DNA of 64,000 nt from Paenibacillus aceti (lineage in GTDB: Bacteria > Bacillota > Bacilli > Paenibacillales > Paenibacillaceae), in NCBI RefSeq assembly GCF_003614185.1, contig NZ_KZ987724.1:2763733-2827732 (forward strand), read 5' to 3'. Of the stretch, positions 1-19,214 are shown in pieces. How positions within the stretch are numbered: the first letter of the stretch is position 1; each line of letters begins with the position of its first letter. The notes under the pieces were generated by a model that was not told the DNA's origin, did no database searches, and saw only the letters and a program-made list of their open reading frames with translations. The translations under genes and the position numbers were made by a program.

Positions 1-1978
1 ACTTTGGAACAATCGTACCTAAAATTCCTGCTTGGTTTGCACAATAAGAAACAAACATTGCGCACCACGGCTGATAGTTCTTACCATACCATTTACCATA
101 AGGTGTATTATTATCACCTTCTTTTTTACCTTTTGGCACGTTTTCTTTAAAGCCTTTCTCAAGTTCCTTTTCAGCACTGGACAGAAATCTCCTTATCCCC
201 TCATTTTCTACAACTATATTAGAAGTGATCTCTTCACCCGGATTCAGTTCATTTATCCCCGGTTTAGAAAGCTGAGAACATTTTGTATATGTCAGTTTCC
301 TTCTTTTAACATATTTCCCCATTACGTCATCTGATAACGAAACTTCATGAATGTTCACCAATGTAATCTCTTTCCCAGAGACTTTAATTTTATTTATTAT
401 TCTTAAAGCTCCCTTAGGAGATTGATTATATAAATCGGTAAAATAAATGAGTGCCTTCTCGTCTGAAATCCCCTGTTTTTTACCTATATTTAGATATTCC
501 CGCATATCAAGCCTAGCTTGTTCATCTTGGTATTTAATTCCGATATCGGTTGATATAAGCTTTGATATTGCCTTTGCTTCTTCATCCGTCAGTACTCTGG
601 CTTTCCAGCGATCATTTTTCTTAGCTAATGCCTGATCAGTTAATTCCTTAAAAACATTAGAGTTCTCACCTAATATTTTTTTTGCCGTTTCTATATCTTG
701 TTTAATTATTCTAAGAAGTAGATCGTATGCCCTGCTTTCGTGCCACTGCAATTTCCCTATGCTAATACCTCCGGGATACCCCTTTTGTAAGTTCTTCCCA
801 TCATCTTTAGAAACTGTACTATACCCCCCCTCATTCCCGAATACGATTTGCTGCGCAACCGATATTAAATCAAAGGCTTGTTGTCTTTTTCCAGGACTTA
901 AAGGAGTTGATGATGGATTTTTCCCCTCAACATTCAAATACTTCCCCGCTGCCCCCGCGCCAGTCCACATAAATTTATAGTCGGTGTCGTCTACCATTTC
1001 GGAGGATAGGGAATACTTCTCCTTCAGGATGGTACGGAGTTTCTCGGCATAGATGTGGGCTCCGTCCATTTCCTTTTTCATATCTTTAGCCTTGTATTCA
1101 TACCAGGCGACCTGCGCTCGGCCGATCTCGCTTAGTAGTTTATGTATTTCGTCCAGCTGCTTTCTAGCCCATGCTCCCGAGGATTCCCCCTTTTTAATCA
1201 AACTTAGTAAATAAATATACTGGTTATCCAGTGGCATTAGAATCAAGATGGGTTTGTTATCCTTGATGATTTGAAGGGAAGGGTCGTAGGAGCAGGCTGA
1301 CAAGGGTGAGCCCGGATAGAGGTGGTCCAATTTAACCCGCTCACCATATAGATCTTCGTGAATTCCGTATTCTTTCAGAATTTTTCTTTGCTTTGTGGCT
1401 TCTTTATGAGCATGAGTCATTAGGGCTTGATTTCCAAAAGCCTTATACACCGCATATGCTACCTGGGCTCGGGCAATCGTATTTCTTGCCTGGAAGATCG
1501 CATCCAGCTTCTCCTTCGCTTCCTTCTGTTCCTCCTCGGTACCGTTCATCGCCTTCAGGTGTAATTCCTGCACTATGGGATTTTCAAACCATTGATCTTT
1601 TAAGTAGTTATCGGCCCCTTCACCAGCAAGCCCACCACCCGGCGTATAGTAGGAAGATGGAAGCTGATATTGTTCAATCATCGCCTGGGCTGTTCTTTCT
1701 TTATCTTGATACTGCCCGGCTGCTTGCGATAGAGCACTTGATTTTCTGGCTAGCCCTTCGGTTACTATAGCCGCTTGCTTCCTAATCTCTCTCAGATCAT
1801 CCTCCACCTCGTTTAGAGCCTGCTGGACTTCCCATTCGGAATACTCACTTCGTATCTCTCGAATCAGCTGTGAAATGACGGAATAGATCTGATGCTCCCC
1901 ACCTTCAACGGTTCTCTCTAGCTGCTTCAAATGGACAGAGAGGTCCTCCAGTTTCGTAGGGTCCACTTTAATACTCAT
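1..1978 (-). CDS. WXG/LXG-type T7SS effector with lysozyme-like and CHAP domains (partial, runs off left edge)
   Basis: The frame is open from an ATG at 1978 (AAGGAAG ribosome site 8-9 bases upstream) to the window edge, so at least 659 residues are present and the C-terminus is missing. Residues 1 to about 95 form a helical WXG100/LXG-like domain beginning MSIKVDPTKL. A middle module holds a LSACSYDPS motif, which recurs in the split toxin at 37840-40254. Around residue 380 the segment NEGGYSTVSKDDGK followed by SIGKLQWHESRA resembles lysozyme-like domains of phage and bacterial peptidoglycan hydrolases. The last residues, with NYQPWCAMFVSYCANQAG, carry the catalytic-Cys block of a CHAP amidase/endopeptidase. 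I infer a T7SS-exported cell-wall hydrolase, either an anti-bacterial toxin or a wall-remodelling enzyme for the secretion machine. It sits at the downstream end of the EssC/WXG100 operon. Confidence 0.8.
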   Translation of the reverse strand, partial: MSIKVDPTKLEDLSVHLKQLERTVEGGEHQIYSVISQLIREIRSEYSEWEVQQALNEVEDDLREIRKQAAIVTEGLARKSSALSQAAGQYQDKERTAQAMIEQYQLPSSYYTPGGGLAGEGADNYLKDQWFENPIVQELHLKAMNGTEEEQKEAKEKLDAIFQARNTIARAQVAYAVYKAFGNQALMTHAHKEATKQRKILKEYGIHEDLYGERVKLDHLYPGSPLSACSYDPSLQIIKDNKPILILMPLDNQYIYLLSLIKKGESSGAWARKQLDEIHKLLSEIGRAQVAWYEYKAKDMKKEMDGAHIYAEKLRTILKEKYSLSSEMVDDTDYKFMWTGAGAAGKYLNVEGKNPSSTPLSPGKRQQAFDLISVAQQIVFGNEGGYSTVSKDDGKNLQKGYPGGISIGKLQWHESRAYDLLLRIIKQDIETAKKILGENSNVFKELTDQALAKKNDRWKARVLTDEEAKAISKLISTDIGIKYQDEQARLDMREYLNIGKKQGISDEKALIYFTDLYNQSPKGALRIINKIKVSGKEITLVNIHEVSLSDDVMGKYVKRRKLTYTKCSQLSKPGINELNPGEEITSNIVVENEGIRRFLSSAEKELEKGFKENVPKGKKEGDNNTPYGKWYGKNYQPWCAMFVSYCANQAGILGTIVPK

Positions 1979-2054
1979 GAACAGAGCTTCCTTTCTCATT
2001 CCAATTTCTAAAAAACATGGCGACAAAAGTTTATATTTTGCCGCCATGTCGAGT

Positions 2055-4820
2055 CTAATTATTCAAATCGTCAAACATCGAACCCACCACTTTCACCTTG
2101 ATCGATTCCATGTTTTCAATACCTTCTAACTTCTTCAGTTCCTTATACATAGGATCCATTTTCTCTAAATCTGTTTTATCAAACCATACTTTAATGTTGT
2201 AGTCACCGTTTGGCATATTAGCATGGGTGTATAATGATATGTTTGTAGGGTTCACTTGGATCGTTATTCTGGATGTTTCCGTAATTTTGTAAATAGGCTG
2301 CCCTTTTTCAACATATTCACGATACACATACTTCGAATGGCTGCCTTGCGTACGAGATTCGCTATAGCCTTCCATCATCATTTTCCAGAACTTATGGGAG
2401 TCGCCATCCCTTTGATCAGTTGACTCAATAGGTTCTACTGTTTGTTTGTATCTAGATTCTTCCCCTTTTACATTCTGGTCAATGACTTTAAGCAGTTCAG
2501 CCCCATTGACACTCTTATTATTCTTTAGCGATAACACACCACTCTTTCGGATAAAACCGCCGCCTTTAGGTATAAGCTCGTCATCACTAATATTCACAGG
2601 CTGTTTCTTGTCATTGATATACATCAGGTCAGATTCATAACGGAAAGAATTGATCAGTTCATTTACTAAATCCCGATGATCAGCTGTACCCTTCTTATCG
2701 GGTTTCTTATCTTTGAAGACTACCGTCTCTACTGTAAATGTATAGCTCCCAGCCGGGTTAAAATAGTAACCTGATTTTATGGGGTAATCATACTTCTGGA
2801 GATCCTTATCCGTGGCGAATACCGCTTTGTCATAGCTAGACTTGACGTTCTTCCTATCGCTAGCTGCTTTTCTTGCCGGACCGTACTCATCCCCCATCTT
2901 ACTTGTTATGCTGTAATTAATCACAGCGCTTTCTTGCTGGGTGAAGTACCTTTTGTACTGACCTGGAACCTGCTTCCAAGGGTCTTTTTTCCCTGTCTCA
3001 TTCTGATGATGCATCCAGCGGATGACATTAAAAGGATAGGGTTTATTCACCCAATACATCGTCTTCGATTTGGAGCTTTTTGTGTTATTATCGATTTGCT
3101 GTTTGAAATCTTGTTTAGGGAGATCCTTCTTTCCGTTGTACACATACATATTGTAGGCTTCGAACACGGAGTTGGAATCGAATTCAGCTGTGGCTGTTCC
3201 TGTTTCGGTTCTGGATTTAGTCGTGCAAACTTGCTCTTTGCCTACACCAGTACAGTCAGTCCAAGTTACTGTATACGAATAAGGCCTGCTTACCGACCCC
3301 GAATAAAATATTTCCCCGGTTCTCGTTAAGGGCACATCCGGGTTACTTAGATTCTTCCATTTCTTGTTGACCGGGTCATCTCCGAAATCTTCCCTTTTAA
3401 TTGTATAGGTCACATAAGGATGAACGGTTACGACTTCGCTATTCACACTAACTTTGTTATTATGCTCTTTAAAATCCTTAAACAAATCCGTAGTTCTATT
3501 GGTAATAGTCAAGGTGCCTGTCGCGGGACCCGTCCATCTGACATCCGTCAAATCAGGTAAGCTTAAGGTCGCGGTATTACTCGGTAAATCAAATTTAACC
3601 TTTTTCGATAACATGTCGTACGGCAATGGTTTAGGGGTGACCAACTTGACGGCTTCTGGATCCGAATCGAGTACATTATTATAGAGCAATTTCTCTTCTG
3701 GATCTTTTCCATCCGCATTGATCTTGAACTTGATTCGAACATCACTTTCCGGCATCGTGAAGGAAATCGCTAATCGTCGTATATTCTTTTTCTCTATTTT
3801 TAGTGTCCCTGTCGCCGCAGTAATCGCGCCGCCAAACCGCAGATTATCCTTTTCCTGGGTTAAGGCTCTCCCCTGTTTCTTATTGATCACTTCCAGAGAA
3901 TATTGAGGATTTACTTCCGATGGAAATGTAGAACGGACAACGATGGATACGGAAACTTCATCTCCAGCTACCGCTCCTGATGGAAGGTTCTCAAACTGTG
4001 CAGATATATCACTTCCCGGTGATCGTATGAAAGGCGCAATCGGAATATCCTTATAGGTATGTTTCATATACACTCTGCCAAACCCTTGAGACAAATACGT
4101 GGGGGGTTGAATTACATGGACACGGCTTATCCAACCACCTTCTGGGGCTCCATTCTCTGAATAAACCTTTTTATTCGCTAATGAACTGTTCTGGTTATTA
4201 TACATGTATTCAGAGTAGGTCTTCCCTAAGTACTCATCATTAAGAGCTGTAAGGATTTGTTGTTCAAAATTACCGTCCTGGAGGTATTCCTTTAATTTAT
4301 CCGTAATTTCTCCTTTGAAAGAATCAGGAAATAAATCGAAATTCCCCCTTTTTACTCTTCCTTCCTCCCAAGGTAACTTAACCATTGAAAAATTATGAAG
4401 CAATTGTCCACTCCAACCAGCATCCCAAGGAAACCCTCTAGTAGAGACATCGTCACCTTCCGAGTTATAACCAGAATATCTATACATTTCCTTCCCTTTA
4501 TGAAATATTTTAGTACCATGGCTACTCCCATATACTATATCGAAACCTTTAAATTCTTGAGGTTTTTGAATTGCTTCATTGATTTGCTCCTGCACTAGAG
4601 CAGCATTAAATTTACCCTTTTCTGTTGAAGGGGGGAAGTAGTTATCTAAATCGTACAGTTCCTTCATATCTTGATTAGCTCTTTCTCGTACTTTCTCTGG
4701 TGTAAGTTCCTTGAAGTCTATTTTATTCGCTTCTTCATTACTTTCAGAATATGTTCTGATTTCAGGGATAACTGTACAAAATAAAATTACTGTTAGTAAA
4801 ATTGTAACAGCACGTTTCAT
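2055..4820 (-). CDS. Large secreted protein of the T7SS operon (possible DUF5704/Athe_2463-like)
   Basis: This 921-residue protein has a clear signal peptide (MKRAVTILLTVILFCTVIPE, then a polar stretch), so it is exported. No catalytic motif is recognised. The sequence is rich in beta-forming, Thr/Ser/Asn/Tyr segments, which suggests several immunoglobulin-like or adhesin-like modules in the middle. A WTDCTGVGKEQVCTT segment near residue 540 could carry one disulfide. It resembles in general character the long Paenibacillus proteins annotated as Athe_2463/DUF5704 domain proteins, but I cannot confirm this by eye. It lies 8 bases downstream of the stalk-domain gene and upstream of the CHAP effector, within the T7SS operon. 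It may therefore be a surface component or substrate of that system. Confidence 0.7.
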   Translation of the reverse strand: MKRAVTILLTVILFCTVIPEIRTYSESNEEANKIDFKELTPEKVRERANQDMKELYDLDNYFPPSTEKGKFNAALVQEQINEAIQKPQEFKGFDIVYGSSHGTKIFHKGKEMYRYSGYNSEGDDVSTRGFPWDAGWSGQLLHNFSMVKLPWEEGRVKRGNFDLFPDSFKGEITDKLKEYLQDGNFEQQILTALNDEYLGKTYSEYMYNNQNSSLANKKVYSENGAPEGGWISRVHVIQPPTYLSQGFGRVYMKHTYKDIPIAPFIRSPGSDISAQFENLPSGAVAGDEVSVSIVVRSTFPSEVNPQYSLEVINKKQGRALTQEKDNLRFGGAITAATGTLKIEKKNIRRLAISFTMPESDVRIKFKINADGKDPEEKLLYNNVLDSDPEAVKLVTPKPLPYDMLSKKVKFDLPSNTATLSLPDLTDVRWTGPATGTLTITNRTTDLFKDFKEHNNKVSVNSEVVTVHPYVTYTIKREDFGDDPVNKKWKNLSNPDVPLTRTGEIFYSGSVSRPYSYTVTWTDCTGVGKEQVCTTKSRTETGTATAEFDSNSVFEAYNMYVYNGKKDLPKQDFKQQIDNNTKSSKSKTMYWVNKPYPFNVIRWMHHQNETGKKDPWKQVPGQYKRYFTQQESAVINYSITSKMGDEYGPARKAASDRKNVKSSYDKAVFATDKDLQKYDYPIKSGYYFNPAGSYTFTVETVVFKDKKPDKKGTADHRDLVNELINSFRYESDLMYINDKKQPVNISDDELIPKGGGFIRKSGVLSLKNNKSVNGAELLKVIDQNVKGEESRYKQTVEPIESTDQRDGDSHKFWKMMMEGYSESRTQGSHSKYVYREYVEKGQPIYKITETSRITIQVNPTNISLYTHANMPNGDYNIKVWFDKTDLEKMDPMYKELKKLEGIENMESIKVKVVGSMFDDLNN

Positions 4821-4828
4821 AGAATCTC

Positions 4829-5737
4829 CTACTTATACCATATTTCTATGTTAACATCTCGCCAGTATCTTGATTCCACCACTATCTTATAAGTATCATC
4901 TTTAAATGTTTTTTCTAGTAATATATCCTCTCGATTTTTCTTCTCCCTAACATATTTCATAACTTCATCTACCGTTTCTTCGTTTACCTGTTGAAGTAAG
5001 ATTTCCTCAAGATCTTTAGCCTGTGCCTCAAGATCATCCCCTTCAATATTCCCGACAGTCATGTTTATACTTAAGATTGTTCTTGTATTTCCATACTCTG
5101 GTTTATAATGACTCACACCTGGCAACAATCCAGATTTATAAACACTATAATAACTAAAACCCTCCGTCGTTAATTTGTCAGTCTTCCCTTCAATAGATCT
5201 GGTTGCCTCCCATGCATCCCAATCAAAATTCTTCGATCCTGGCTTAGTCGGATCGTCCTCCACCTTCTCGCCAGAGGCCGTTGTTACTGTCCCCGTTGTG
5301 ATGCTGACCATATAATTGCTAGAGTCCCACTTTACCTTGGCTCCCAAGCCTTCGCTGACAAAGCGCAGCGGAACGAAGGTTCTGTTCGCTTTTCTTATAG
5401 CGGCGGTATCCATGAGTTTCGTAGAATCGTTGATTTTATAGGCTTTATTGCCGATCGTCAGGATGAGCTTCGTCTCATCATGCTCAATCGTCACTTCCTT
5501 CGTTTTGTTCTTCCAGCCAACCTTGGCTCCCAGCGCTTCACTGACAAAGCGGACCGGGACCTGTACCCGATTTTGCTTATCCACATACGGCTGCGCATCC
5601 GGGAATATTATTCTTTCCCCATTCAGCTCCACCCGTAGCGACAGCTTGGCCTTTCCCGCAGCAGATGATAATCCCGGAGCCATCACAAAGATGAGGACCA
5701 TGGACATCAATATCAGACTGATTTTCTTCAATTTCAT
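4829..5737 (-). CDS. Exported protein with copper-amine-oxidase-like (stalk) domains
   Basis: The ATG at 5737 is preferred because GAGGAGAGGG lies 5-6 bases before it; an upstream TTG at 5755 lacks a ribosome site. The product (302 residues) has a signal peptide (MKLKKISLILMSMVLIFVMA). It is followed by a duplicated Cu_amine_oxidN1 stalk domain: VQVPVRFVSEALGAKVGW and then TFVPLRFVSEGLGAKVKW, covering about residues 35-150. Despite the family name, these domains are not enzymatic; they are common in Paenibacillus wall and surface proteins. The C-terminal half (about 150 residues, with IDTAE-like acidic helices) is not recognised. The gene sits between the WXG100 genes and the large secreted protein, so an extracellular role connected to T7SS export is plausible. 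Confidence 0.8.
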   Translation of the reverse strand: MKLKKISLILMSMVLIFVMAPGLSSAAGKAKLSLRVELNGERIIFPDAQPYVDKQNRVQVPVRFVSEALGAKVGWKNKTKEVTIEHDETKLILTIGNKAYKINDSTKLMDTAAIRKANRTFVPLRFVSEGLGAKVKWDSSNYMVSITTGTVTTASGEKVEDDPTKPGSKNFDWDAWEATRSIEGKTDKLTTEGFSYYSVYKSGLLPGVSHYKPEYGNTRTILSINMTVGNIEGDDLEAQAKDLEEILLQQVNEETVDEVMKYVREKKNREDILLEKTFKDDTYKIVVESRYWRDVNIEIWYK

Positions 5738-5837
5738 GTTTTTCCCTCTCCTCAATAAATAATATATATTGTAAATTCACTATTTTGTCTAAATAGCGAT
5801 ACTCTGGTTTCGTCCCTATTGTTGCCCTAAAACATGT

Positions 5838-5873
5838 CAGACATGGAGGCAGTTTAAGCTGCCTCCATGTCTG
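5838..5873 (-). terminator. Perfect 15-bp hairpin after the second WXG100 gene
   Basis: CAGACATGGAGGCAG (5838-5852) pairs perfectly with CTGCCTCCATGTCTG (5859-5873) across a 6-base loop. On the minus strand it is followed by ACATGTTTTAGG, only a weak U-tract. It lies 12 bases after the WXG100 stop codon. I infer partial termination or a 3' stabilising stem that lets WXG100 mRNA accumulate above the downstream genes. Confidence 0.7.
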
Positions 5874-5884
5874 AGCTTGCCCGA

Positions 5885-6184
5885 TTACAGTCTAAGCTGA
5901 TTTGCAAGATCTGCATCGCTTTGTTGCTTGATTTCGGCGATTTTGCCGATAAGCACCTTGTATTCTTCGATCCATTTGTTAAGACTTTGTGATACTTGAG
6001 TTTTCGTAGTTTGGAAATTAGCAATGAATGCTTCTTCAGAACCGCCGGACCACCAGGACTTTACGCCTTCTACCATCGTAGCCATCCGCTTGAGGTCTGC
6101 ATCGATTTTTCCAATCTCTGATTGCAGTTTTGTTTTCAGAGCTTCCGCTTGCTGAAAATCAAATTTTTGTTGGTTCGCTGCCAT
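5885..6184 (-). CDS. WXG100 family T7SS protein (EsxA/YukE-like)
   Basis: The ATG at 6184 (MAANQQKFDFQQ) has GGAGGTGA 8 bases upstream; a GTG at 6196 overlaps that site and is rejected. The product is 99 residues, the usual WXG100 size. It is two helices around a central turn at residues 44-46: KSWWSGGSEEAF, where W-S-G is the family WXG motif. Family members dimerise and are exported by EssC-type ATPases, often as partners of LXG effectors. The C-terminal half (AEIKQQSDADLANQL) lacks an obvious YxxxD/E export signal, unlike ESX substrates with that tail. It follows a second WXG100 gene and precedes a strong hairpin, which suits a highly expressed component. Confidence 0.92.
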   Translation of the reverse strand: MAANQQKFDFQQAEALKTKLQSEIGKIDADLKRMATMVEGVKSWWSGGSEEAFIANFQTTKTQVSQSLNKWIEEYKVLIGKIAEIKQQSDADLANQLRL

Positions 6185-6291
6185 TTTTTGTTTCACCTCC
6201 TTTCAATAGCTATCTGTACTTGATCTTAATACCGCACAGCATTCCTGTTCTGAGCTCCTGCCCTGGCAGCCGCTTCGGCAGCTCTTCTTCT

Positions 6292-6546
6292 CTAGTCATC
6301 AGCCCGCTGAACTTGGGTGCTCAATCTACCTAAACGAGAAGAAAGACTGGTCATCTTGCTGGTCAACGATTTAATTTCGGTATGCAATTCCCTATACCCA
6401 GCCCTAAAAGCCTTGCCTGCATCGCCCTGCCACCAGGAGCTCGAATCATTGACCTGCCAATAGCAACGTGAGCTTTCACTATTAATGTCACCTTTGATTT
6501 CTGTGACCCTGCTGGCCTTGCTTTTGATTTCTGATACAGTTGACAT
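6292..6546 (-). CDS. WXG100 family T7SS protein
   Basis: Two ATG codons are possible; the second (6546, MSTVSEIKSK) is chosen because GAGGAG is 8 bases before it, while the first is only 2 bases away. The 84-residue product is helical with the motif SSSWWQGDAGKAF at about residues 37-49, the WXG turn. It is short for the family and Ser-rich. Next to the other WXG100 gene it could form a heterodimer, as EsxA/EsxB-type pairs do, or act as a chaperone-like partner for the LXG effector. The gene lies directly downstream of essC with about 45 bases between them. Confidence 0.9.
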   Translation of the reverse strand: MSTVSEIKSKASRVTEIKGDINSESSRCYWQVNDSSSWWQGDAGKAFRAGYRELHTEIKSLTSKMTSLSSRLGRLSTQVQRADD

Positions 6547-6591
6547 ATCCATTTCTCCTCAGAAATTTAGGATCTCGGCAATGAAGTAATG

Positions 6592-9500
6592 TCAGTTCGC
6601 AGGCACCAAGGATGGCGCGGCACTATTAGCCAGAATAGTCGCACATCTCATCCCCGTAAATTTATTCTTGTTGATAAAATAGCCATCGAAACTCTCCATC
6701 TCTTTCTCAGATGCCCCATAAGGCAATCTTGCCGAGAAAAGTCCTTGTTCCTTAATGCTCCCTAGCAGAATTCCTGTCTGCTCTTCCTTGACTGCCTTGC
6801 CAAGGCTATCCCAGTTTCCGGAGAGATCGGAGATGGTATCCGCAGCGATCACGGCTACCTTCATTCCGCGCTCCTGCTTCACAATCCGTTCGAGCAGTTC
6901 CTTCAGCGTATAGTTATCCCCATCCGTGAATTCGCTCAGCTTGTCGAATACGAATACAATTTGCTTCCATGAGCTCAACAGTTGCTTAATATCTCCGCCT
7001 TCTCGCCGACACTCCGCCATCTGCCTGCGGCGTTCATCCAGCAGTTCCTTCATTTCTTCGATAAAGGCTTCCTCAGTCTCGGCCAAATCAGTGACATAAG
7101 GAAGATTCATCATCTCGAACAATCCCATACCACTGGAATCCAGGGCATACACCTCCACTTCATCCAACATACTGACCCATGAACGAAGCAAGGTACTCTT
7201 TCCAGACATCGCCTCCCCGGCCACCATGATGACGGGCGTAACATAGAGATCGACATAGACTGGCTGAAGGTCATTATTAGCCAAGCCGATCCCAAGCTTG
7301 CCGACCTCTCTATTGATCTGCTGTATATCGATACTAGACGGCATAATAGGGATAGGTTTGGCCCTTGTCGTCTCAAGATTGGCAAACCTATTCAGAAGCT
7401 GGTCGCAAGTTATTCCTTCATATTCCGGAAGTGAAGCCTGGAATTCCAACGGCGGCTTGCCCCGTACTAGCCCACGGCCAGGAACCTTCATAGGCTCAAG
7501 CCCTTCGGTCCGTCCAACCACTCCATCGTAATCCCCTTTATCCGTCATCTGGAAAGTCACTGCGAGCTTGAAGTTAACACTGAATTTATATCTTACAAAT
7601 GCCGCGTTAGATGCTGTCGCCACCAGGTAAATACCGTATTTCGTCCCTTCCCGGGCCAAGAGCATCATATGGGCATCCAAATCCTCATAGGACTCCGATA
7701 GCGCAAAATAATTGTCAATCATCAGTACAATCGACGCCAGCTTCCTCCCACCATGCCGATAAGCGTTGAATCCACTGCTGCCACTCTGCTCGAATAGTAC
7801 TTTCCTCTCTTCCATCTCTCTGAACAAGAACATGACGAACTGATCGATCTTGGTCTTCTCTTCGATGGTCATCACTCCGCCTACATGTGGAAGCTTCTCG
7901 AAAATTCGCAGCGAGTTACCCCCGAAATCCATGATGTAGATGTTCACGTCTTCAGTAGAGTAGTAATGCGCCATAGACATGCACAGTGTTTTTAGAAACT
8001 CTGTCTTCCCCGTACCAGAAGCACCGTATATAAATAAATTTCCTTCATTGGCAAAATCAATCTCCAGCACATCCTGGCTCTGACTTCTTGGATCATCCAG
8101 CCTGCCGACAGGCACTTTTAACAGGTTCTCCTGCTCAGTCCAATGTCCAATCTCCACCCCTGATCCCAAAACACCATCAAGGTATACTAATTCTGGAAGC
8201 GGAGGCAACCAAGGGCCCTTCAGCGCTTCAATATCGGACCGTTCAGCCGTTTTAACGATATGCTCAACCATAGCGCCAAGCTGTGAAGGCAACTCATGCT
8301 TGACAATTTTCTCCTCATAGCGAGGGTAGATCTGTTCCATCCTGCCATTCAAAGAAATTTCGTAGATTCTTTTAACCTTATTTTCACTTTTCTGCAGCTC
8401 ACCTTCAGGGTCATAATCTGCTCCCGAATAAGTCGATTGGAATAGCTCGAATATTTCATCATTACCGACCTGGATGAACGCACGACCCGGCTCCTTAATC
8501 ATCGCTGCGTCAGGACGCTTGATCACATCCTTACTGTCCCGCTCATCCTGTACCTTGAGACAGATCTTGAATTTGGAGTTACTCCAGATCTGGTCATCCA
8601 CGACCCCGGCAGGCTTCTGCGTCGCCAATATCAGGTGAACTCCCAGGCTTCGACCTACACGGGCCGCACTGACCAATTCCTTCATGAAGTCGGGCTGATC
8701 CTGCTTCAACTCAGCGAACTCATCCGCGATCATAATCAAGTGAGGGATGGCCGGCATATGTCCGCCTTCATTACGGCTATAATAGAGCTTCTGATATTTA
8801 TCGATATTATTCACACCGAATTCCGAGAACAGACGCTGCCGCCTCATCAGCTCACTCTTAATGGACAGAAGTGCGCGGGTAGTCTGATTGCCCCCCAAAT
8901 TCGTAATCGTTCCTACAAGATGGGGCATCCCTTGGAATATATCTGCCATACCTCCACCCTTGTAATCGATGAGCACAAACACTACGTCATGCGGGTGATA
9001 GTTAATCGCTAACGAAATGATAATACTCTGGAGTAGCTCACTTTTCCCCGAACCGGTCGTTCCTGCGACAAGTCCGTGCGGACCATGCCCGGTCTCGTGC
9101 ATATCCAGATGGAACAGGCTGCCCCCAGCTTTCGCACCGATCGGTACACTCATCCCTTGGAACGGCTTATTTATACTCCAGCGAGATCTAAGATCGACTT
9201 CCCCCGTTTTCTTCGCTTGCAGCATATCAAGCAGGGTTAGCGAAGTAGGTAAGGTGAAGCTGCCGCCGGAATTTTTGATGCGCAGTGGAGCCATTCTCCG
9301 TGCAGCCTCACTCAGCTGCTGCAAATTCACGCTGTCCGGATTAAATGTGGTCTTTTCTCCCGTTTCCCGGTCGGCCAGCTCTCCGGTTTTGCCCTGCACC
9401 AGAATAACCTGCTTGCAGTTCATCGGAAGATAGGCTTGATGCTTGGCCATATATATGGAGGAAATCCCAAGTGAAGCACACTTGTTATAAAGGAATTTAT

Positions 9501-10479: not shown

Positions 10480-10481
10480 AA

Positions 10482-11552: not shown

Positions 11553-11570
11553 GCCGTCACATCCTTATGC

Positions 11571-12071: not shown

Positions 12072-12571
12072 GGCTGTCCATTCCAGTATTTTAAATACTC
12101 TTCATATTCCAGATCTTTATAGTGCTTGAGCCCCGTTGTTTTTAACGCAAAAGATACTGGTATTTCCCTTTCATACTTCTCCCCCCATAATTTAACACTT
12201 AGTGGATATACAGCACTTATCGTTACTATTACTGATTCTCCCCGCTGCCTATAAGGTTTATCTGCATCCGGCATACCCTCATAATCTGAAGCGTCGTCGT
12301 AACCTCTCGCGGAATGATGGTCTTCATGTTCAGCGAAGATCTCAATATCATTGGCTTTTTGAGAAAAAATAGGACGTTTCTCTAATCGGTCCTTGGTATC
12401 ATCATAGTAGGTGTCTTTTAAGTAATTGTCACTTGCTACGTACTGAGTAACATTAAAAGTTTCAACCACTAAAGTCATGTACCAAGGAAAGAAAAAGACT
12501 AAGTTAGTAAATAGCATAATAACGATGACAGCAATAATTGAAATTAGTATTGATTTAGCAAAGGCTCGCAT
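12068..12571 (-). CDS. Single-span membrane protein, pseudopilin-like
   Basis: This 167-residue product has one N-terminal membrane helix (ILISIIAVIVIMLFTNLVFFF) followed by an acidic, His/Asp-rich outer domain that ends in a beta-rich part (SVIVTISAVYPLSVKLW). The layout, a short cytosolic N-terminus, a single helix and an outer domain, is that of TadE/TadF-type minor pilins. There is no clear G-x4-E prepilin cleavage site. It is coupled to the downstream gene by an ATGA overlap and follows the Flp-like gene by 12 bases. No specific family is recognised. Confidence 0.65.
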   Translation of the reverse strand: MRAFAKSILISIIAVIVIMLFTNLVFFFPWYMTLVVETFNVTQYVASDNYLKDTYYDDTKDRLEKRPIFSQKANDIEIFAEHEDHHSARGYDDASDYEGMPDADKPYRQRGESVIVTISAVYPLSVKLWGEKYEREIPVSFALKTTGLKHYKDLEYEEYLKYWNGQP

Positions 12572-12583
12572 TTATGTTCTATC

Positions 12584-12790
12584 CTATTGTATGAGACCGT
12601 CGATATATCCCATAAGCGTATCGAATATTCTAGTTAACCAAGACCCCATCTGACCTTGCATAGCGCCAATAATAATACCTATGACGACAATCACCCCAAC
12701 AGTAATCGCTATCTGTTTAATTCCAATATCCCCCTGTTCATCTCTCCAGAAAGAGGTTCTTTCGTTATTTCTTTGACTTTTTTGTCCCAT
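12584..12790 (-). CDS. Flp-pilin-like small membrane protein
   Basis: The 68-residue product has a polar N-terminus (residues 1-25), one hydrophobic helix (IAITVGVIVVIGIIIGAM) and a short amphipathic tail. This is the size and layout of Flp/Fap type IVc pilins, with an EQG-D junction before the helix. Unlike typical Flp proteins, the residue five after the Gly is not Glu (GDIGIKQ), so processing by a TadV/CpaA peptidase is uncertain. No peptidase gene is visible in the operon. GGAGG is 8-9 bases before the ATG. It precedes the two pseudopilin-like genes and follows the TadC-like gene. Confidence 0.7.
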   Translation of the reverse strand: MGQKSQRNNERTSFWRDEQGDIGIKQIAITVGVIVVIGIIIGAMQGQMGSWLTRIFDTLMGYIDGLIQ

Positions 12791-12820
12791 AAATAAATAC
12801 CTCCATTTATTAAATACATT

Positions 12821-13702
12821 TTATAGAAACATTTTGATAGAACTCATAACCGAAAAAGCAAAATAAACCACTATATACAACCCCAACACCCCGATCAGCA
12901 CCAGCTGAATCCTTGAATTCGTCCGCTGTCGGCGCTCCAGATCCTCTTCCAGCGCGAGGATTCGGTAGCTATCGACCTCGTTCTTGAGGTAGACCATCTG
13001 CGAGATGTTGTCATAGCCCTTGAGCCGCGTCTCCATAAGGTCACAGAACTTGATAATATAATGAATCGGCACGCGCTTCTTCAACTGCTTGAGGGCATAT
13101 TCCTCGCCATACTCGATGTTGTCAAGCATCACGCCAAGCTCTTCGGCCATATCCGTCTGGGCATTCGGCAGATAATCTCGGATGACATCCGCCAGATAAA
13201 TGTTGATCGATTTCGAATACTGGTAGTAAATCATACTGTAGAAGGCCGGGAACTCAAAGGCGATATTCTTGTTCTTCTTCTCGATCTTCTTCTCGATCTC
13301 CGATACCGGGTACATCCAGCCCAGCACGATGAAGATCGCCGTTACATAGCCGAGCAGTTGATTCGCCGTCATCATCACCATCGTGGCAACTATTCCGCAG
13401 GCCATATAGAATAATTGCTCTAATCGCAGCTCCTCCGGCTTCATCGTTAGATCGAGCCGATCGATCATTTTCTGGAATCTTATTCGTTCCGCATTACTCA
13501 GCAGCTTGCTTACATATTTCTCTGCGAAGCCGCGTTTGAAGATCTTGAATTTCTGATTGAATTGCTCGCTCTTGCGCTCCTGCAGATACTTGCGGTTTCG
13601 CTTCTTCTGCCTGCGATTGACTGGCTTGAAATAAGGATAGATAAAGACCTTGATCAGATAAATCACACAGCCCAGAGCGATCAACTTCACCAACAGACTC
13701 AT
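12821..13702 (-). CDS. TadC-like type II secretion F domain membrane protein
   Basis: The 293-residue product has one N-terminal helix (LVKLIALGCVIYLIKVFIYP), a long basic cytosolic region, a hydrophobic pair near residues 105-140 and a C-terminal helix (IQLVLIGVLGLYIVVYFAF). This is the layout of the GspF/TadB/TadC inner-membrane platform of type IV pili. The helical segment after residue 160 (FPAFYSMIYYQYSKSINIY) matches the T2SSF domain position. The ATG overlaps the previous stop by 4 bases, so it is coupled with the TadB-like gene. I infer it forms the platform with that protein and is driven by the TadA ATPase. Confidence 0.78.
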   Translation of the reverse strand: MSLLVKLIALGCVIYLIKVFIYPYFKPVNRRQKKRNRKYLQERKSEQFNQKFKIFKRGFAEKYVSKLLSNAERIRFQKMIDRLDLTMKPEELRLEQLFYMACGIVATMVMMTANQLLGYVTAIFIVLGWMYPVSEIEKKIEKKNKNIAFEFPAFYSMIYYQYSKSINIYLADVIRDYLPNAQTDMAEELGVMLDNIEYGEEYALKQLKKRVPIHYIIKFCDLMETRLKGYDNISQMVYLKNEVDSYRILALEEDLERRQRTNSRIQLVLIGVLGLYIVVYFAFSVMSSIKMFL

Positions 13703-14682
13703 TTGCTATCACTTCCAGGTCCCAGATTCCCCTGCAGTGCCTGCGTACGAGCGAAGCTAAGACAGATAATGCTAATCATGGAGGTGTTGATGACTTTGCC
13801 GAAGGTGGTATAGAGCATGAACTCGCGAAAATCCTTGACCGACAGGGCATATAGGAAGAACAGGACGATGATTACGGTCTTCAGCAGGAAATCACGATTC
13901 ATCTTGCGGAAGATCCGGTCCTTCCTGGCATTGATCTCCCGTAATACGGCATTCTCATCCACGATATCGAGGAAAATATCAGCCATCCCTTTGCGCTCAT
14001 TGTATTCGAACACGATTGCCTTCTTGGTGAAATTATCGAATTTCGGACCAAGCTGACGGTTAAGCAGCGTGATTGCCTGCTTGAAGGAATAACCGTTATT
14101 CTCACAGTTATCGATGAATTGCTGGAAATACGGTCTGATGCCGGGCTTGATATATTCATCACTCTCCATCACCTTCTTAATCGCTACGAGCACTCCCTCT
14201 CTAGCGAGGGGGCAGATGATATCCTCAGCATCCATAATGCTCTCCAGCTTCTCGGCCTTGATCGCCTTGGACTGCATAACGAAGTAGGTCAAAAGTCCAA
14301 TGAAGATAGCAACTGTTACGACCACCGACAGAGTCACGTTCTGCATGAAAATCACGATAACCAGCACAACAATCGCAAAGCAGATACACAGCAGGGACGT
14401 GAAGCTCTCTAGTGTCAGCGGCAGATTGAAGTCAATGATCAGTCCCTCCACAAGCCGATTGTACTTCGCATACACATTCTCCTTCTGCTTAACAATCCGT
14501 TCCTTCTTCATCCGCTCAACATAGCGTTTCGTATTGTATTTCCCTAAGTATTCTGCAAAAGTATCCAGCATGCCAAGGAAGAAGCGACCAGTCCCCTCGA
14601 AGAAACGAATCTCAAACATGGCATTCAGAATAATAAATGCTGCTATACCGAAGAAAAGACTAATGATTGAAGTTGTATCCAT
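13699..14682 (-). CDS. TadB-like type II secretion F domain membrane protein
   Basis: The ATG at 14682 is preferred: AGAGGAG is 10 bases before it, while a first ATG at 14691 is only 1 base away. The product (327 residues) has an N-terminal helix (IISLFFGIAAFIILNAMF), a helix pair near residues 115-160, and C-terminal helices near 275-320. The cytosolic domain includes EYNERKGMADIFLDIVDENAVL, compatible with a T2SSF/TadB fold. The start lies inside the end of the tadA gene. With the next gene it forms the two-subunit TadB/TadC platform. Confidence 0.78.
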   Translation of the reverse strand: MDTTSIISLFFGIAAFIILNAMFEIRFFEGTGRFFLGMLDTFAEYLGKYNTKRYVERMKKERIVKQKENVYAKYNRLVEGLIIDFNLPLTLESFTSLLCICFAIVVLVIVIFMQNVTLSVVVTVAIFIGLLTYFVMQSKAIKAEKLESIMDAEDIICPLAREGVLVAIKKVMESDEYIKPGIRPYFQQFIDNCENNGYSFKQAITLLNRQLGPKFDNFTKKAIVFEYNERKGMADIFLDIVDENAVLREINARKDRIFRKMNRDFLLKTVIIVLFFLYALSVKDFREFMLYTTFGKVINTSMISIICLSFARTQALQGNLGPGSDSK

Positions 14683-16129
14683 CGAACCCATACTCCTCTA
14701 TCTCATCTTCCGCAGGTTCCGTCGTCAGAAACTCGAATCGGCTTCGCTTAATTCCCGCCTTGATCATCGTCTGCTGCACCTTCTCCGATAACATGCCCAC
14801 CCGCTTATGCTTCCCGATGATCTTCAGCACCCGATGGGTATCCTCGTCTTCCACCACATCCTCAGAGATAAATTTATAAATCGGATTGATAATTGGCTCT
14901 AGTCCCTCGGAACCGATGATCTCGGAGACGGAAGTTACTTTACGTGTCCCATCGGCAAGCTTCTCCTGGAACACGACGAACTTGACTGCACTGCATATAT
15001 TGCGAAGAGCCAGTTCTGCGGGTTCATTCGAAGCCATCAGATAGGCCGTCAGGAAGCGGAAAATCGCCTCCCGATCTCCTTCCGCATGCAAGGTTGTGAA
15101 GAAGAAGTGTCCTGTCTGGGCGGCGCGGAGTGCGGTCGCGAACTCGCCTGGAGTTCGCAGCTCCCCGGGACCAATCCAGTGCGGAGATTGCCGCATCGCG
15201 TTAATCAGCAAGTTCTCCATCGTAGCCGGGCTAGCATCATCATCATCCGGAACGGATTCATATTGCAGCACATCGTTGATAATCCTGCCATGCTCCTGAT
15301 TCCCTTCCCTACGAAGCAAGCGCATTTCCGACGGATTCTCGATCGTGATGATCCGGGATAGCGGGTTAATCTCCTTGACCATCATTTCGTTGAGCGTTGT
15401 TTTGCCGCTGCCGGTCGGTCCTACTGTAATCCAGGACAGGTCAGCCTTGGGGAGCAGAGACAGCAGCTTGAACATGTTCACAGAGAATGATTCATTCTTG
15501 ATCATCATTTCCGGCGTGATACTCTTCTTGCTGAACTTCCGGATGACAACCGCGGGCATATCGTAAGGGGATATATCCGCATGCGTCGCATTGACCCGGT
15601 ACCCTTCAATCGTTCTCGCATTGACCATCGGAATCTTGGGTGTCAATCGCACCTTGGAGACGCCGAGCAGCTTGGAGATAATTCTCTCCAGATGCTCCCG
15701 ATCCAGGAAGTGATGCTCCCATGGCAATGTCTTGCCCCCTGTCTCTACGAAGATCTGCTCGATTCCATTAATGCGGATCTCATCGATCGTCGGGTCCTCC
15801 ATCGCCTTCGTAATCGGGCCATAGTGGGTGATCTCGTCAATCAGCGCTCTTTTTAAATCAACTAATTCGTAATAGCCTTCAACAACCGGTTTCTGTGAAT
15901 CTACAAACTCGTTAATATACGCCTTGGTCATCTCCCGCTTCCGTCCAGGATCCTGTTCCCGTCTGAAAGCATGCGTCGCCACCTTGGTGATATATTTCTG
16001 ACAATGCTCTAATGCCTCTTCAAATTGGATCGTCGTATATTTGTTCTTCAGGTCGTCCATGTCTTCTTTTTTGCTGACCTGATGACTAACCTTCTGCTGC
16101 ATATCACTGATTTTGGCGCGAGTAAGCAA
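14660..16129 (-). CDS. tadA: TadA/CpaF-like secretion ATPase (VirB11/GspE superfamily)
   Basis: The 489-residue product has the hexameric secretion ATPase domain. The P-loop GPTGSGKTTLNEMMV is near residue 243. It is followed by the Asp box (IITIENPSEMRLL), a Walker B-like segment and the His box FFFTTLHAEGDREA near residue 345. The N-terminal 120 residues are the charged helical region of CpaF. The start is a TTG (GGGAGA 5 bases upstream), in keeping with a gene 13 bases from its upstream neighbour. It powers assembly of the Flp/Tad-type fibre in known systems. Here it stands in one operon with the EssC secretion ATPase, giving two ATP motors. Confidence 0.92.
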   Translation of the reverse strand: MLTRAKISDMQQKVSHQVSKKEDMDDLKNKYTTIQFEEALEHCQKYITKVATHAFRREQDPGRKREMTKAYINEFVDSQKPVVEGYYELVDLKRALIDEITHYGPITKAMEDPTIDEIRINGIEQIFVETGGKTLPWEHHFLDREHLERIISKLLGVSKVRLTPKIPMVNARTIEGYRVNATHADISPYDMPAVVIRKFSKKSITPEMMIKNESFSVNMFKLLSLLPKADLSWITVGPTGSGKTTLNEMMVKEINPLSRIITIENPSEMRLLRREGNQEHGRIINDVLQYESVPDDDDASPATMENLLINAMRQSPHWIGPGELRTPGEFATALRAAQTGHFFFTTLHAEGDREAIFRFLTAYLMASNEPAELALRNICSAVKFVVFQEKLADGTRKVTSVSEIIGSEGLEPIINPIYKFISEDVVEDEDTHRVLKIIGKHKRVGMLSEKVQQTMIKAGIKRSRFEFLTTEPAEDEIEEYGFDGYNFNH

Positions 16130-16142
16130 TGTATCTCCCTCC

Positions 16143-16970
16143 TTACTGGTTACAGAGGATATCCGTTAGGCGCCTCATTTGCTTAAGAAAATATCTATTA
16201 ATTAGTGGATTATCCCTGACATACAGCTTGCCTTCCAAGGAATAAGCATAAGCTGCTTTCACATACGGCAATGCAGCGACAATTTTAAGACCGAACTCGT
16301 TGATCGCCTTGTGATCATAGTTAATATCCTGGATGTTCATCAGAATGACACTGGTAAACTTGGCTGTACTAATCCCGACCGATGAAGCGAAGTCGAGCAG
16401 GCGGACCATATTACTGGTTGCTTCAATCCGCTCTGTAGAAATGAAGAACCCGATATGTGAGAATTTCATCGCCCCCAAGCAGAACTCCAACGGAGGATTA
16501 TTCGGTATATCCACCAGCACGATATCGAACATGCTCTTGAGCGTATTGATCACATGCTCCAGATGATCGAATTCGAAGTCCAGGTATTCTTCAATCAGAT
16601 CATGCGGACTCGGGGAGAGCAGATATAGCTTCTCGTACTTGGTAGCCTGAATCTCTTCGCGGAAATCCACCTTGTCGCTCTTCAATACACGAATCAGACC
16701 CCCGCCCTTCTTATTCGGCTTGGCATCCAGATAGTGATACAGATTGGGATTGAAGACCTTCAAATCCAGCACACAGGTGTTCAAACCCTTCTGGGCGAGT
16801 AAATAGCCCAGGTTGCTAATCACAAGCGCATTGTCAACCATATCGCAGGCTGGTATAAATCCGATCACGCTATAGATGAGCTTGCTCTCCTGGAACTCGG
16901 AGCCCATATATTCCTTTGGAGATATTTTATGAAGCACCTGGTCGAGACTTAGTCTGTCGTTTTGATCCAC
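16143..16970 (-). CDS. MinD/ParA-fold protein lacking a Walker A motif
   Basis: The 275-residue product follows the SIMIBI/MinD pattern: an opening strand (SVIGFIPACDMVDNALVISN) where the P-loop should be, then VLDLKVFNPNLYHYL (switch region), IVLVDIPNNPP (Walker B-like) and FFISTERIEATSNMVRLL. The usual KGGxGKT/S stretch is replaced by GFIPACDMVDNA, with no Gly-rich loop or Lys. I infer an ATP-free partner of the CpaE-like protein at 17829-19214. The GTG start has GGAGG 7 bases upstream and overlaps the end of the CpaB-like gene. It is not a ParA partition gene: no ParB is nearby. Confidence 0.72.
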   Translation of the reverse strand: MDQNDRLSLDQVLHKISPKEYMGSEFQESKLIYSVIGFIPACDMVDNALVISNLGYLLAQKGLNTCVLDLKVFNPNLYHYLDAKPNKKGGGLIRVLKSDKVDFREEIQATKYEKLYLLSPSPHDLIEEYLDFEFDHLEHVINTLKSMFDIVLVDIPNNPPLEFCLGAMKFSHIGFFISTERIEATSNMVRLLDFASSVGISTAKFTSVILMNIQDINYDHKAINEFGLKIVAALPYVKAAYAYSLEGKLYVRDNPLINRYFLKQMRRLTDILCNQ

Positions 16971-17824
16971 GATTCCACCTCCCTCTGCAAGGTAGGCAAT
17001 TGATCCAGGATCACCTGACTGTTCTTCCGGCTAAGGATCGTGATCAAGTATTTCTTGCCATCATATCCGTTATACTTGGCGAAATTATCGATCTGTTCCT
17101 TCGTTCCCTCGAGCAGCAGCGATCTCGGTTGAATACTCTTCAGAAAGTCACCACTCTTCATCACTTCCTGCCGTTTATCCTCGCTGAGCTTAAGCACCTC
17201 TTTATAGACTTCATAGATCGAATGGCTGCTAGAGTTGAGCATATCGCGGACTTCGATGCTATTGAACAATATTTCAGTCTTCATCTTAGATCCTCCAGAT
17301 GAGTACCCCGCATTGGGATTCCCCCCTGACGAACGCTCCTCCTGTTCATAGGAGACACGGATCCTCACCCGATCTCCCGGCATCAGAATATCTCCCCCCG
17401 CCTCGAGGAAGTTATAAGGCAGAGTAAGGACTTCATGCTCATCCGCCATTTCATAGAGCCATTCGTTCTGCTGCGGCTTCTCATCCATGAATTGATCCTT
17501 ATAGAGGATGCTTTCATCCCGTAGATAGTACTTCGTGAACTTGTCGACTACAGAATTCATATCCTCAGCAAGCACCATATCGTTGGAATATTCCTTGCGA
17601 ATGATGGAGTATTTCCTGATCTGCTTCTCGGTGATGGGGACATAAGCCGGAATGCCTCCAGACTGATCTATCCGCAGCACCTCCACCGTATCTTTGGCCG
17701 CCTCATTGGCATTATTCAGGACAATATATGAGACAATAATGATGAAAATACTGAGCAATAATGCTAAAATTTTCTTGAACAGCTTTCTGTTCGGGGATAC
17801 GTTCTTTACCGTACTTAAGTCCAT
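16949..17824 (-). CDS. CpaB/RcpC-like SAF domain pilus protein
   Basis: The ATG at 17824 (MDLSTVKNVSPN) has GGAGGG 11 bases before it; the earlier GTG overlaps that site. The 291-residue product has one membrane helix near the N-terminus (ILALLLSIFIIIVSYIVL) and an outer domain with PAYVPITEKQI and LMPGDRVRIRVSY, features of SAF-domain CpaB/RcpC proteins, which are Tad pilus assembly factors. In Gram-negative bacteria it links with a secretin; Gram-positive members work without one. A Gly/Ser/Asn-rich insertion (SSGGNPNAGYSSGG) is present. It overlaps the CpaE-like gene region by only a few bases with neighbours, in line with co-expression. Confidence 0.82.
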   Translation of the reverse strand: MDLSTVKNVSPNRKLFKKILALLLSIFIIIVSYIVLNNANEAAKDTVEVLRIDQSGGIPAYVPITEKQIRKYSIIRKEYSNDMVLAEDMNSVVDKFTKYYLRDESILYKDQFMDEKPQQNEWLYEMADEHEVLTLPYNFLEAGGDILMPGDRVRIRVSYEQEERSSGGNPNAGYSSGGSKMKTEILFNSIEVRDMLNSSSHSIYEVYKEVLKLSEDKRQEVMKSGDFLKSIQPRSLLLEGTKEQIDNFAKYNGYDGKKYLITILSRKNSQVILDQLPTLQREVESWIKTTD

Positions 17825-17828
17825 AGTG

Positions 17829-19214
17829 TTATGCACCCTCCATTAGTCTTAGAAGCATCTGACCGAATGCTCTTTCGAATTCAGCTCCTGTATTGGTAAG
17901 TGGAACATCCGTCTCTATCTGGGAATCGAACCCGGAATTATAAGGAACTGACCCTGCCGTCCTCATTTCATAGCGCAAATAATCACTGAGTCCCGAAGTC
18001 AACACCTCACTTACTTTATCCGCAGTAAAAAGTTGATCCTGAAATCTGGAACGATCATTATACTGTGTGACAATCACCTTCGACTTAGCGTTCAGATAAG
18101 TTGCCTTCTCTTGATCGAGCACCACTTCTACATTCCGAACCGTACTTAATACCGCATGCAGGTTGTTAGGAACGCATAGCCCGAACACATCGATATGAAT
18201 CATCGTCTCTTTGAAACTCCTGAATAAATCCAGTGGCATATCCAGCAGGACGAGGTTAAATCTGCTTCTTAGTACCGAGATCAAGCCAATTAATTTCTCA
18301 CTGTTGTAGAATTGCTCAAGTAGTCTGTGGTCGTGAAAAGAATATCCCAGGGAGGTAAGCCATAAGTTGTCTTTGATATTAAAAGCGGTTGTCATGTAAT
18401 CTTGAGGTCTGGCGAGTGTGCGGATGAGCGACGCGCTCATTTGTTCTTCCTTGTTGGTTCTTTCGTGGAAACGGTCAAAGTACATATTCATACTTCTATA
18501 CTCCGTATCCATATCGATGATAATCGTACTTAAGCCCCGTTTCGAGGCTTCATAAGCTAAATTCACAATCGTGCTCGTTACTCCACTGCCACGATGGCCG
18601 GTAATCGCGACAATTCGGCTAATCCCCCGGCTTATATTGGCCAGTTCGCGGCTTAAGCGATCTGTAGCTTCTAATGATTCAGCAGCACCATCCGGCTTTG
18701 AACGAAAACGATCGAAGAAGGATCTTCTTTTGGTGGTGGGTTCTTTATCAACTTGCTGTTCATCCTGATTCTTATGTAATGCTTTTGAATTAGAATTAGT
18801 ATGTATCGGGGGGGACTTGTGCTTAACAGCAATATCTAGTTCAAATTGATATACATCCATGGGGGCACGGATTTTATCAATAGTTATGACTCTAAGGCTG
18901 CTATATCGAGAGGACAGCGAGGCGTAGTCTTCCACTTTCATACTGTCTCTGGTAATGAGAAGCACCGGAGCTCCTGGACGCTGACTTTCTTCCAACCACT
19001 TCAGTAAATAGGCCAAATTGTCACGATCCTGTCCCAGCTTCTGAGAAAAGGCCTCATCGGTAAGCAGAACCGCATCCACTACAGGAACTCCTTCAGCTAT
19101 GAGCTCCTTCAAGTCTTGTAGCTCTAATCCTTCAGAATTAATAACCGTAGTTCTTCTTGATAGACTATCCAATACTAATCTATGAAATCCACCGGCTACC
19201 ACTAGTAATTTCAT
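17829..19214 (-). CDS. CpaE/TadZ-like MinD-family protein with receiver-like N-terminus
   Basis: The 461-residue product starts with a Rossmann-like region (KLLVVAGGFHRLVLDSL, VLLTDEAF, VLLITRDSM) reminiscent of an atypical receiver, a polar linker near 125-190, and a MinD-like ATPase domain. The P-loop region is VAITGHRGSGVTSTIVNL near residue 208; the Lys of GxGKT is Val here, as in many CpaE-type proteins that have KGGVGATT. A switch strand (IIIDMDTEYRSMN) follows. CpaE/TadZ proteins mark the pole for Tad pilus assembly. This is the first gene of the operon, right after the promoter at 19280-19308. Confidence 0.82.
   Translation of the reverse strand: MKLLVVAGGFHRLVLDSLSRRTTVINSEGLELQDLKELIAEGVPVVDAVLLTDEAFSQKLGQDRDNLAYLLKWLEESQRPGAPVLLITRDSMKVEDYASLSSRYSSLRVITIDKIRAPMDVYQFELDIAVKHKSPPIHTNSNSKALHKNQDEQQVDKEPTTKRRSFFDRFRSKPDGAAESLEATDRLSRELANISRGISRIVAITGHRGSGVTSTIVNLAYEASKRGLSTIIIDMDTEYRSMNMYFDRFHERTNKEEQMSASLIRTLARPQDYMTTAFNIKDNLWLTSLGYSFHDHRLLEQFYNSEKLIGLISVLRSRFNLVLLDMPLDLFRSFKETMIHIDVFGLCVPNNLHAVLSTVRNVEVVLDQEKATYLNAKSKVIVTQYNDRSRFQDQLFTADKVSEVLTSGLSDYLRYEMRTAGSVPYNSGFDSQIETDVPLTNTGAEFERAFGQMLLRLMEGA

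Follow-up and report, generated by a model that had tools for sequence, protein, structure and literature searches.

Why do the genes of a pilus-assembly machine run directly into those of a type VII secretion system (T7SS)? They do so in a stretch of 64,000 nucleotides from Paenibacillus aceti (C1:2763733-2827732 of a 5.6-Mb genome; "the window" below means this whole stretch). Here, a run of genes on the minus strand starts at position 19214 with nine Tad-like genes, which end at position 11571 and are followed by the genes for YukD, a DUF5050 protein, the translocase EssC and two WXG100 proteins; the gaps within the run are short or negative. The T7SS half is of the T7SSg subtype, the core components of which, TsgA1, TsgA2, TsgB, TsgC and TsgL, were described by Garrett, Higginson and Palmer in 2024 (PMC11217815). 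The pairing of EssC with Tad genes is already in print and is not new: the sections of that paper on which we draw state that a full Tad pilus gene set adjoins T7SSg in all organisms, and they leave unclear whether the two are related or merely co-located. We have taken up this question by comparing the locus with 245 further genomes of the same family and with more distant relatives. Our view is that a divergent Tad filament machine and EssC are encoded together and that they probably serve a single process of export or delivery.

Firstly, the Tad-like genes, YukD, DUF5050, EssC and the WXG100 pair form a unit that is present or absent together. Among the 246 genomes of the family, a T7SSg-type EssC (at least 63% identity) was found in 27, the other EssC matches among those listed being at most 45% identical; likewise, matches to TadA (E ≤ 1e-40) fell into a group of 27 genomes at 76% identity or above and a group of 12 genomes at 33-37%. 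The high-identity groups of the two proteins consist of the same 27 genomes, and the two genes are always adjacent. These genomes span 5 of the 19 genera, and each of these genera also contains genomes that lack both. In a sample of 398 genomes of the phylum, both high-identity groups again consist of the same genomes, four in number. In G333, a genome from outside the family, the operon is interrupted within tadA by the end of a contig, and its remainder starts another contig. Altogether, T7SSg-type EssC is accompanied by this Tad in all 28 genomes that have it, a count that comes from related and hence not independent genomes (the samples of 246 and 398 share members, and several species of the loci L101-L144 are also among the sampled genomes). 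Secondly, nine hidden Markov models (HMMs) of the Tad-like proteins had no match in 52 further EssC loci from this family, which covered about 20 kb each and of which some genomes contributed two. The TadA HMM, which is the only one with a positive control, finds an ordinary TadA at 1e-39 as well as six other TadA relatives, and its negative result is therefore informative; the YukD HMM, which was built from T7SSg members, was blank in the 52 loci too, so that the HMMs of the smaller parts detect close relatives only. T7SSh, a subtype that adjoins other Tad genes according to the same sections of the T7SSg paper (PMC11217815), may lie outside these 52 loci.

The organization of the unit is strictly kept among close relatives. 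In all 26 related loci that were fetched, the 14-gene run lies on a single strand with every gene present; the Flp-like gene was recovered by BLAST in 24 of them, and by HMM for the remaining two genomes in other copies (L122, L123). The distance between the stop codon of the TadF-like gene and the start of the YukD gene is 18 nt in the window and 10-21 nt across the 26 loci. The search for TadA-EssC neighbourhoods that had been proposed in the original prediction thus bore out the link, with joint presence and absence, 26 tight junctions out of 26, and none among the control loci.

Beyond the family, 84,980 species, each represented by a single genome, were scanned with a TadA alignment and two short peptide patterns, a procedure that can miss relatives. 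This gave 45 loci, 44 of which were kept; L145, at 23% identity, was rejected as a spurious TadA relative. The EssC half lies near Tad on the same contig in 34 of the 44, and in 30 of these in the order seen in the window, including those of Alkaliphilus, Acetivibrio alkalicellulosi and three Clostridia at 64-65% TadA identity (L138, L139, L141). In Acetivibrio straminisolvens and A. mesophilus, with EssC proteins 47-49% identical, the two halves face each other at a distance of 32 nt and therefore cannot share one transcript. In L134 and L135, EssC (34-35% identity) is encoded upstream of tadZ. In three further loci (L114, L129, L142) the EssC half is consistent across contig breaks; the contigs of L137 and L140 end too early for a decision, and a search of the two genomes for EssC (E ≤ 1e-30) found none. 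Hence, the halves that had been predicted to form one operon behave as one genetic unit in all 26 close loci and are convergent in two Acetivibrio species. Since T7SSg-type EssC was never found without Tad in the 28 genomes, and Tad was found without EssC beside it, the dependence looks one-sided: T7SSg-type EssC goes with Tad, and Tad can stand alone.

Several individual loci deserve mention. L134/L167 and L135/L173 are from metagenome-assembled genomes (MAGs) of Clostridium and have, next to this Tad, an EssC of about 1530 aa without the third Walker A motif, which perhaps belongs to another T7SS subtype. In P. faecis, a transposase gene (L126:15218-16237; IS110-type by eye) is located between the Tad and T7SS halves. 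The tadA and essC frames of Paenibacillus sp. D2_2 (L143:9979-19541) are each in pieces, as a result of either sequencing errors or decay. In L163 and L164, a YukD-like gene lies a few kb from the gene for an EssC of 42-43% identity; neither genome has a TadA match at E ≤ 1e-50, and this EssC presumably belongs to a different T7SS subtype.

The EssC protein itself provides a further line of evidence. The window EssC (TsgC; 1295 aa, positions 6592-10479; TIGR03928, 1283 bits with a cut-off of 778) has two N-terminal hydrophobic segments and three ATPase domains, all three with nucleotide-binding motifs. Across the 44 loci, the lysine motif of Walker A is present in 44, 44 and 42 proteins for the first, second and third domain, respectively, the two without it in the third being L134 and L135. 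FHA was not among the Pfam matches listed (25 of 40), and N-terminal FHA domains would not fit in front of the first hydrophobic segment, which spans residues 40-58. A single EssC is encoded in the genome; PF01580 otherwise matches a 906-aa protein, presumably SpoIIIE/FtsK, at full strength and one more protein weakly. A further T7SS having an EssC of its own is thus absent from this genome. In-frame TAG codons were considered for the EssC genes of G084, G126, G172 and G222 and rejected, because the open reading frames (ORFs) are free of stops over essentially the whole protein; the TAG is read as an alignment overrunning the true stop.

The window EssC is mosaic, its two parts joining at about residue 700. 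Up to this point its closest relatives, after P. faecis (L126), are those of the L059 clade, and the rest of the protein, together with the WXG100 proteins and the stalk-domain protein, 921-aa protein and cargo encoded downstream, is closer to L071. TadA and EssC tree distances over the 44 loci have a correlation of 0.877, which was reached in none of 2000 permutations and which shows common inheritance only. Splits were compared for 26 loci (the window and 25 others; L066 was excluded owing to an insertion that breaks up its EssC match), giving 23 splits. Of these, 21 are common to the joint Tad tree and the tree of EssC residues 1-650 (r 0.975, one strong conflict), which is much like the agreement between the two halves of the Tad set (21 splits, r 0.954). 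With EssC residues 721-1295 the Tad tree shares 16 of the 23 (r 0.905, four strong conflicts), and the two parts of EssC have 14 splits in common (r 0.866). Judged from these trees, Tad and the membrane-proximal half of EssC have one history, and the C-terminal half is exchangeable together with the cargo. We read the hereditary unit as extending from tadZ through the first ATPase domain of EssC, with the cargo end being swapped. In Staphylococcus aureus, the C-terminal region of EssC sets cargo specificity, as stated in the part of PMC5994694 cited here.

The remaining T7SS genes, on the minus strand like all features of the window described here, encode TsgB, a YukD/EsaB-type ubiquitin-like protein of 76 aa (11322-11552; PF08817, E 4.7e-8), TsgL, a DUF5050 protein of 274 aa (10482-11306; PF16472, E 8.2e-26), and the WXG100 proteins TsgA1 (86 aa, 6292-6552; PF06013, E 3.4e-12) and TsgA2 (103 aa, 5885-6196; PF06013, E 2.1e-5, the 25.1 bits being 2.2 under the cut-off of 27.3). 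Like T7SSg, the locus has all five core components, an EssC without FHA domains and adjacent Tad genes. No core difference was found; what sets the window apart is its mosaic EssC and a CHAP protein in the cargo slot. Moreover, the locus of Paenibacillus aquistagni strain 11 (L074/L122), a strain named for T7SSg cargo in the sections of PMC11217815 used here, falls inside the same set of loci, with EssC 66-67% and TadA 79-80% identical. The locus shares EssC, YukD/EsaB and WXG100 proteins with T7SSb (Ess/Yuk) systems, and differs from them in that its EssC has no FHA and that two WXG100 proteins, DUF5050 and the Tad-like genes are present instead of EsaA, EssA and EssB.

In the other half, the protein that sequence comparison identifies as a Tad component is TadA, a secretion ATPase of the TadA/CpaF type (489 aa, 14660-16129; PF00437, E 1.7e-29), and it is the sole part so confirmed. 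Among solved proteins, the CpaF ATPases of pilus assembly come nearest to it (E 4e-41), and all 44 relatives retain Walker A, Walker B and His box with minor variation. It is preceded by a TadZ/CpaE-like ATPase (461 aa, 17829-19214), whose matches to MinD-type ATPases are far under the cut-offs, a CpaB/RcpC-like protein with one N-terminal hydrophobic segment (295 aa, 16949-17836), named from position and topology, and a second CpaE/MinD-like protein with weak MinD/Eps matches (275 aa, 16143-16970), each of which is present in 26 of the 26 loci. Following TadA are a TadB-like (330 aa, 13699-14691) and a TadC-like membrane protein (293 aa, 12821-13702), which owe their names to position and three hydrophobic segments each, a Flp-like pilin of 68 aa (12584-12790), and pseudopilin-like proteins in the TadE (167 aa, 12068-12571) and TadF (166 aa, 11571-12071) positions, both consisting of a long N-terminal helix and then a beta-sheet. 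For the TadE-position protein this description derives from an alignment and an AlphaFold2 model (pLDDT, the predicted local distance difference test score, 82.6), for which Foldseek gave no match at E ≤ 0.001. The predicted run of Tad into T7SS genes therefore holds for the order and for TadA, YukD, DUF5050, EssC and the WXG100 proteins, and the remaining Tad names follow from order and topology.

Family searches gave no Tad family match for the TadB-, TadC-, CpaB- and Flp-like proteins or for either pseudopilin-like protein. Neither the TadB-like nor the TadC-like protein matched T2SSF among 14 members each, and the CpaB-like protein had no Tad family match in 14 members. The genome also contains a second, more ordinary Tad locus (L097:7615-19810; TadA-type gene at C1:5510664), with a CpaB matching TIGR03177, a presumed pilin with Glu at +5 (by eye) and a 1652-aa surface-type protein. 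This locus is itself weakly recognized: its TadB has a weak T2SSF match (0.0037), its TadC has none, and its CpaB matches TIGR03177 at 1.7e-13, below the cut-off. The TadB-, TadC-, CpaB-, Flp- and pseudopilin-like proteins of the window had no match to it, and the TadZ-like protein gave a marginal profile match to its presumed TadZ (24-31% probability).

Tad pilins usually carry Glu at position +5. In the window pilin, this position, counted from the conserved Gly at -1, is occupied by Lys. The usual spacing of the Gly is found in 44 of 46 distinct motifs, among which position +5 is Lys/Arg in 43, Gly in one and Glu in none; L141 and L173, where Gly is not in the usual spacing, stand outside the 44, and L173, counted from the nearest Gly, has Glu +5. 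An acidic residue occupies position +1 in 37 of the 44 motifs, never together with Glu +6; the other seven have Glu +6 and never an acidic +1. The motifs thus seem to retain one negative charge close to the Lys, which would be expected of a mature N-terminus that still packs into a filament. Because this feature is also found in Herbivorax, in which no EssC was found, it belongs to the Tad clade and not to the coupling with the T7SS. Thus, the system resembles Tad (Flp, type IVc) pili in its TadA/CpaF ATPase, gene order, topology and small Flp-like pilin with the conserved Gly, and differs from them in the lack of Tad family matches for the other parts, in Lys/Arg at +5 and in that the run does not encode a prepilin peptidase; the genome has three Peptidase_A24 genes at other places.

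How could the two halves work together? TadA would extend a short pilus or pseudopilus, which may provide contact with another cell or a way across the thick cell wall; EssC, for its part, would push WXG100-tagged cargo (wall hydrolases and lipase-like proteins) across the membrane; the delivery would probably be directed against other bacteria. The nearest precedent for such a joint process is the Kil system of Myxococcus xanthus, in which a Tad pilus is functionally tied to a second secretion-type complex, a needleless type III secretion system (T3SS*) (PMC8460266, PMC12075869), and the tips of the Kil pilus are described in the part of PMC12075869 considered here as acting in dependence on the T3SS-like complex. 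The Kil system acts on other bacteria in a contact-dependent manner, and its partner resembles a T3SS basal body, whereas the partner in the window is a T7SS translocase; the killing belongs to the Kil side of the comparison, and the window system is known from its genes alone.

Several observations weigh against a joint process. Adjacent genes are inherited together anyway, and congruent trees are therefore no proof of joint work. The trees of the other two proteins encoded beside Tad agree less well with the Tad tree: DUF5050 shares 16 of the 23 splits (r 0.935, no strong conflict) and YukD 14 (r 0.782, three strong conflicts), although both are short, and split counts alone cannot rank short proteins. 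In Herbivorax sp. ANBcel31 (L112) and the MAGs L128 and L136, Tad is present with enough flanking sequence, and no EssC was found at E ≤ 1e-30 in these genomes, though draft assemblies may miss genes; L130 and L133 have Tad with EssC only on another contig. Finally, neither sequence families nor clear fold matches link any Tad-like part to a T7SS component. The TadF-like gene is the last of the run in Herbivorax, where a gene for a prepilin peptidase (PF01478, 2.3e-10) is located about 6 kb further on.

The alternative that survives best is that the two halves are merely co-expressed: the Tad pilus would attach the cell to surfaces or partners, the T7SS would secrete independently, and the shared operon would reflect a situation in which both are needed. 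The five distant genomes that have this Tad without EssC beside it are in line with this, as are the transposase gene that separates the halves in P. faecis and the convergent halves in A. straminisolvens and A. mesophilus, for which no common transcript is possible. This last arrangement also cuts the other way, since adjacency that persists where no common transcript is possible cannot be explained by shared transcription alone. Moreover, simple co-regulation would allow EssC to occur by itself, and T7SSg-type EssC is never without Tad in the 28 genomes. We therefore regard mere co-expression as somewhat unlikely.

The original prediction had gone further than a joint process, suggesting that the Tad parts physically replace EsaA, EssA and EssB and form a wall-spanning conduit for EssC cargo. 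No EsaA, EssA or EssB family is listed in Pfam for the 17 proteins of the locus (25 of 40 families in the case of EssC), so that the observation that none is visible in the locus stands; they were not sought genome-wide. The single EssC of the genome, and the co-inheritance of its N-terminal half with Tad in a one-sided dependence, are also as replacement would have it. On the other hand, Tad persists in other genomes without EssC; replacement as such appears to us quite improbable. It is doubtful, too, whether there is a two-motor machine in which a TadA-driven pseudopilus of Lys5-pilin would replace the envelope proteins of the T7SS and carry EssC cargo, or admit it, through the wall; we would equally be hesitant to call the system a hybrid that combines type IV pilus and type VII secretion.

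A coincidental neighbourhood due to common descent, raised by the original authors when few genera were known (in the sections of PMC11217815 cited above), is hardly credible and chance was rejected, given that the same 27 genomes hold both genes, that joint presence and absence extends over the 246 and 398 genomes, that the EssC half is near 34 of 44 TadA relatives and consistent with this across contig breaks in 3 more, that adjacency is kept in more than one layout and that 0 of the 52 control EssC loci has a TadA match; we hold strongly that the association of Tad and EssC is very unlikely to be coincidental.

Downstream of the WXG100 pair lies a strong, terminator-like hairpin of 16 bp (5837-5874). 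In 9 of the 26 other loci, a hairpin of 9-15 pairs begins 8-26 nt past the last WXG100 stop codon, and it is not present in the other 17. The hairpin is followed by two accessory genes, encoding a secreted protein of 308 aa with a copper-amine-oxidase N-terminal (stalk-type) domain (4829-5755; PF07833, E 5.4e-36) and a 921-aa protein with an N-terminal hydrophobic segment and no Pfam match (2055-4820). In relatives, the stalk-domain gene is at a variable distance or was not found, and the 921-aa protein has relatives in a minority of loci. Next comes the candidate cargo gene (1-2047), which continues for 319 nt beyond the window start. The complete protein of 788 aa has a CHAP peptidoglycan-hydrolase domain at residues 654-743 (E 9.3e-13) and a WXG100-like N-terminus at residues 26-117 (E 2.7e-3, below the cut-off). 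It had been taken for an LXG-type effector, and this has to be dropped, as no LXG family is among the matches of the complete protein at E ≤ 0.1; the order from WXG100 pair to effector was correct, with the two accessory genes and the hairpin, which the prediction did not list, lying between them.

The downstream slots of the loci encode proteins with a WXG100-like domain that, by our own reading of the sequences, carries a YxExxVQ-type motif. The WXG100-like domain is N-terminal in CHAP and peptidoglycan-binding proteins and C-terminal in lipase-like ones; lipase-like T7SSg cargo was noted earlier in PMC11217815, in the sections cited. About 1 Mb from the window locus, a cassette starting at C1:3765685 (L098:10001-15341) encodes a WXG100 protein, one protein of 403 aa, one that is lipoprotein-like and one of 811 aa that is lipase-like and has a WXG-like domain at its C-terminus; no EssC is encoded within its 20-kb stretch. 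Relatives of these four are located downstream of EssC in 16, 9, 12 and 18 of the 26 loci, respectively, which fits the swapping of cargo. One further WXG100 gene is present elsewhere in the genome. About 18 kb beyond the cargo gene (L216:10257-11695, same genome), a 352-aa protein whose helical N-terminus is cargo-like by eye is followed by a 122-aa ORF, possibly another cargo locus.

As to transcription from a single promoter, the predicted promoter-like site upstream of tadZ (19280-19308) exists, with 10 of 12 consensus matches, a consensus match being what defines it. Promoter-like sites in the region are not above chance, with 32 found and 37.7 expected, and a site of equal strength within 160 nt upstream of tadZ is present in only 2 of 27 loci.

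We know of no resolved account of how T7SS cargo crosses the thick Gram-positive wall. The counts given here sharpen the question left by the T7SSg authors in the sections discussed (PMC11217815) into the prediction that it is the T7SSg-type EssC that depends on Tad and not the reverse. If the two halves do work together, this locus would offer a second motor that can be deleted to study how the wall is crossed or how cargo is delivered upon contact.

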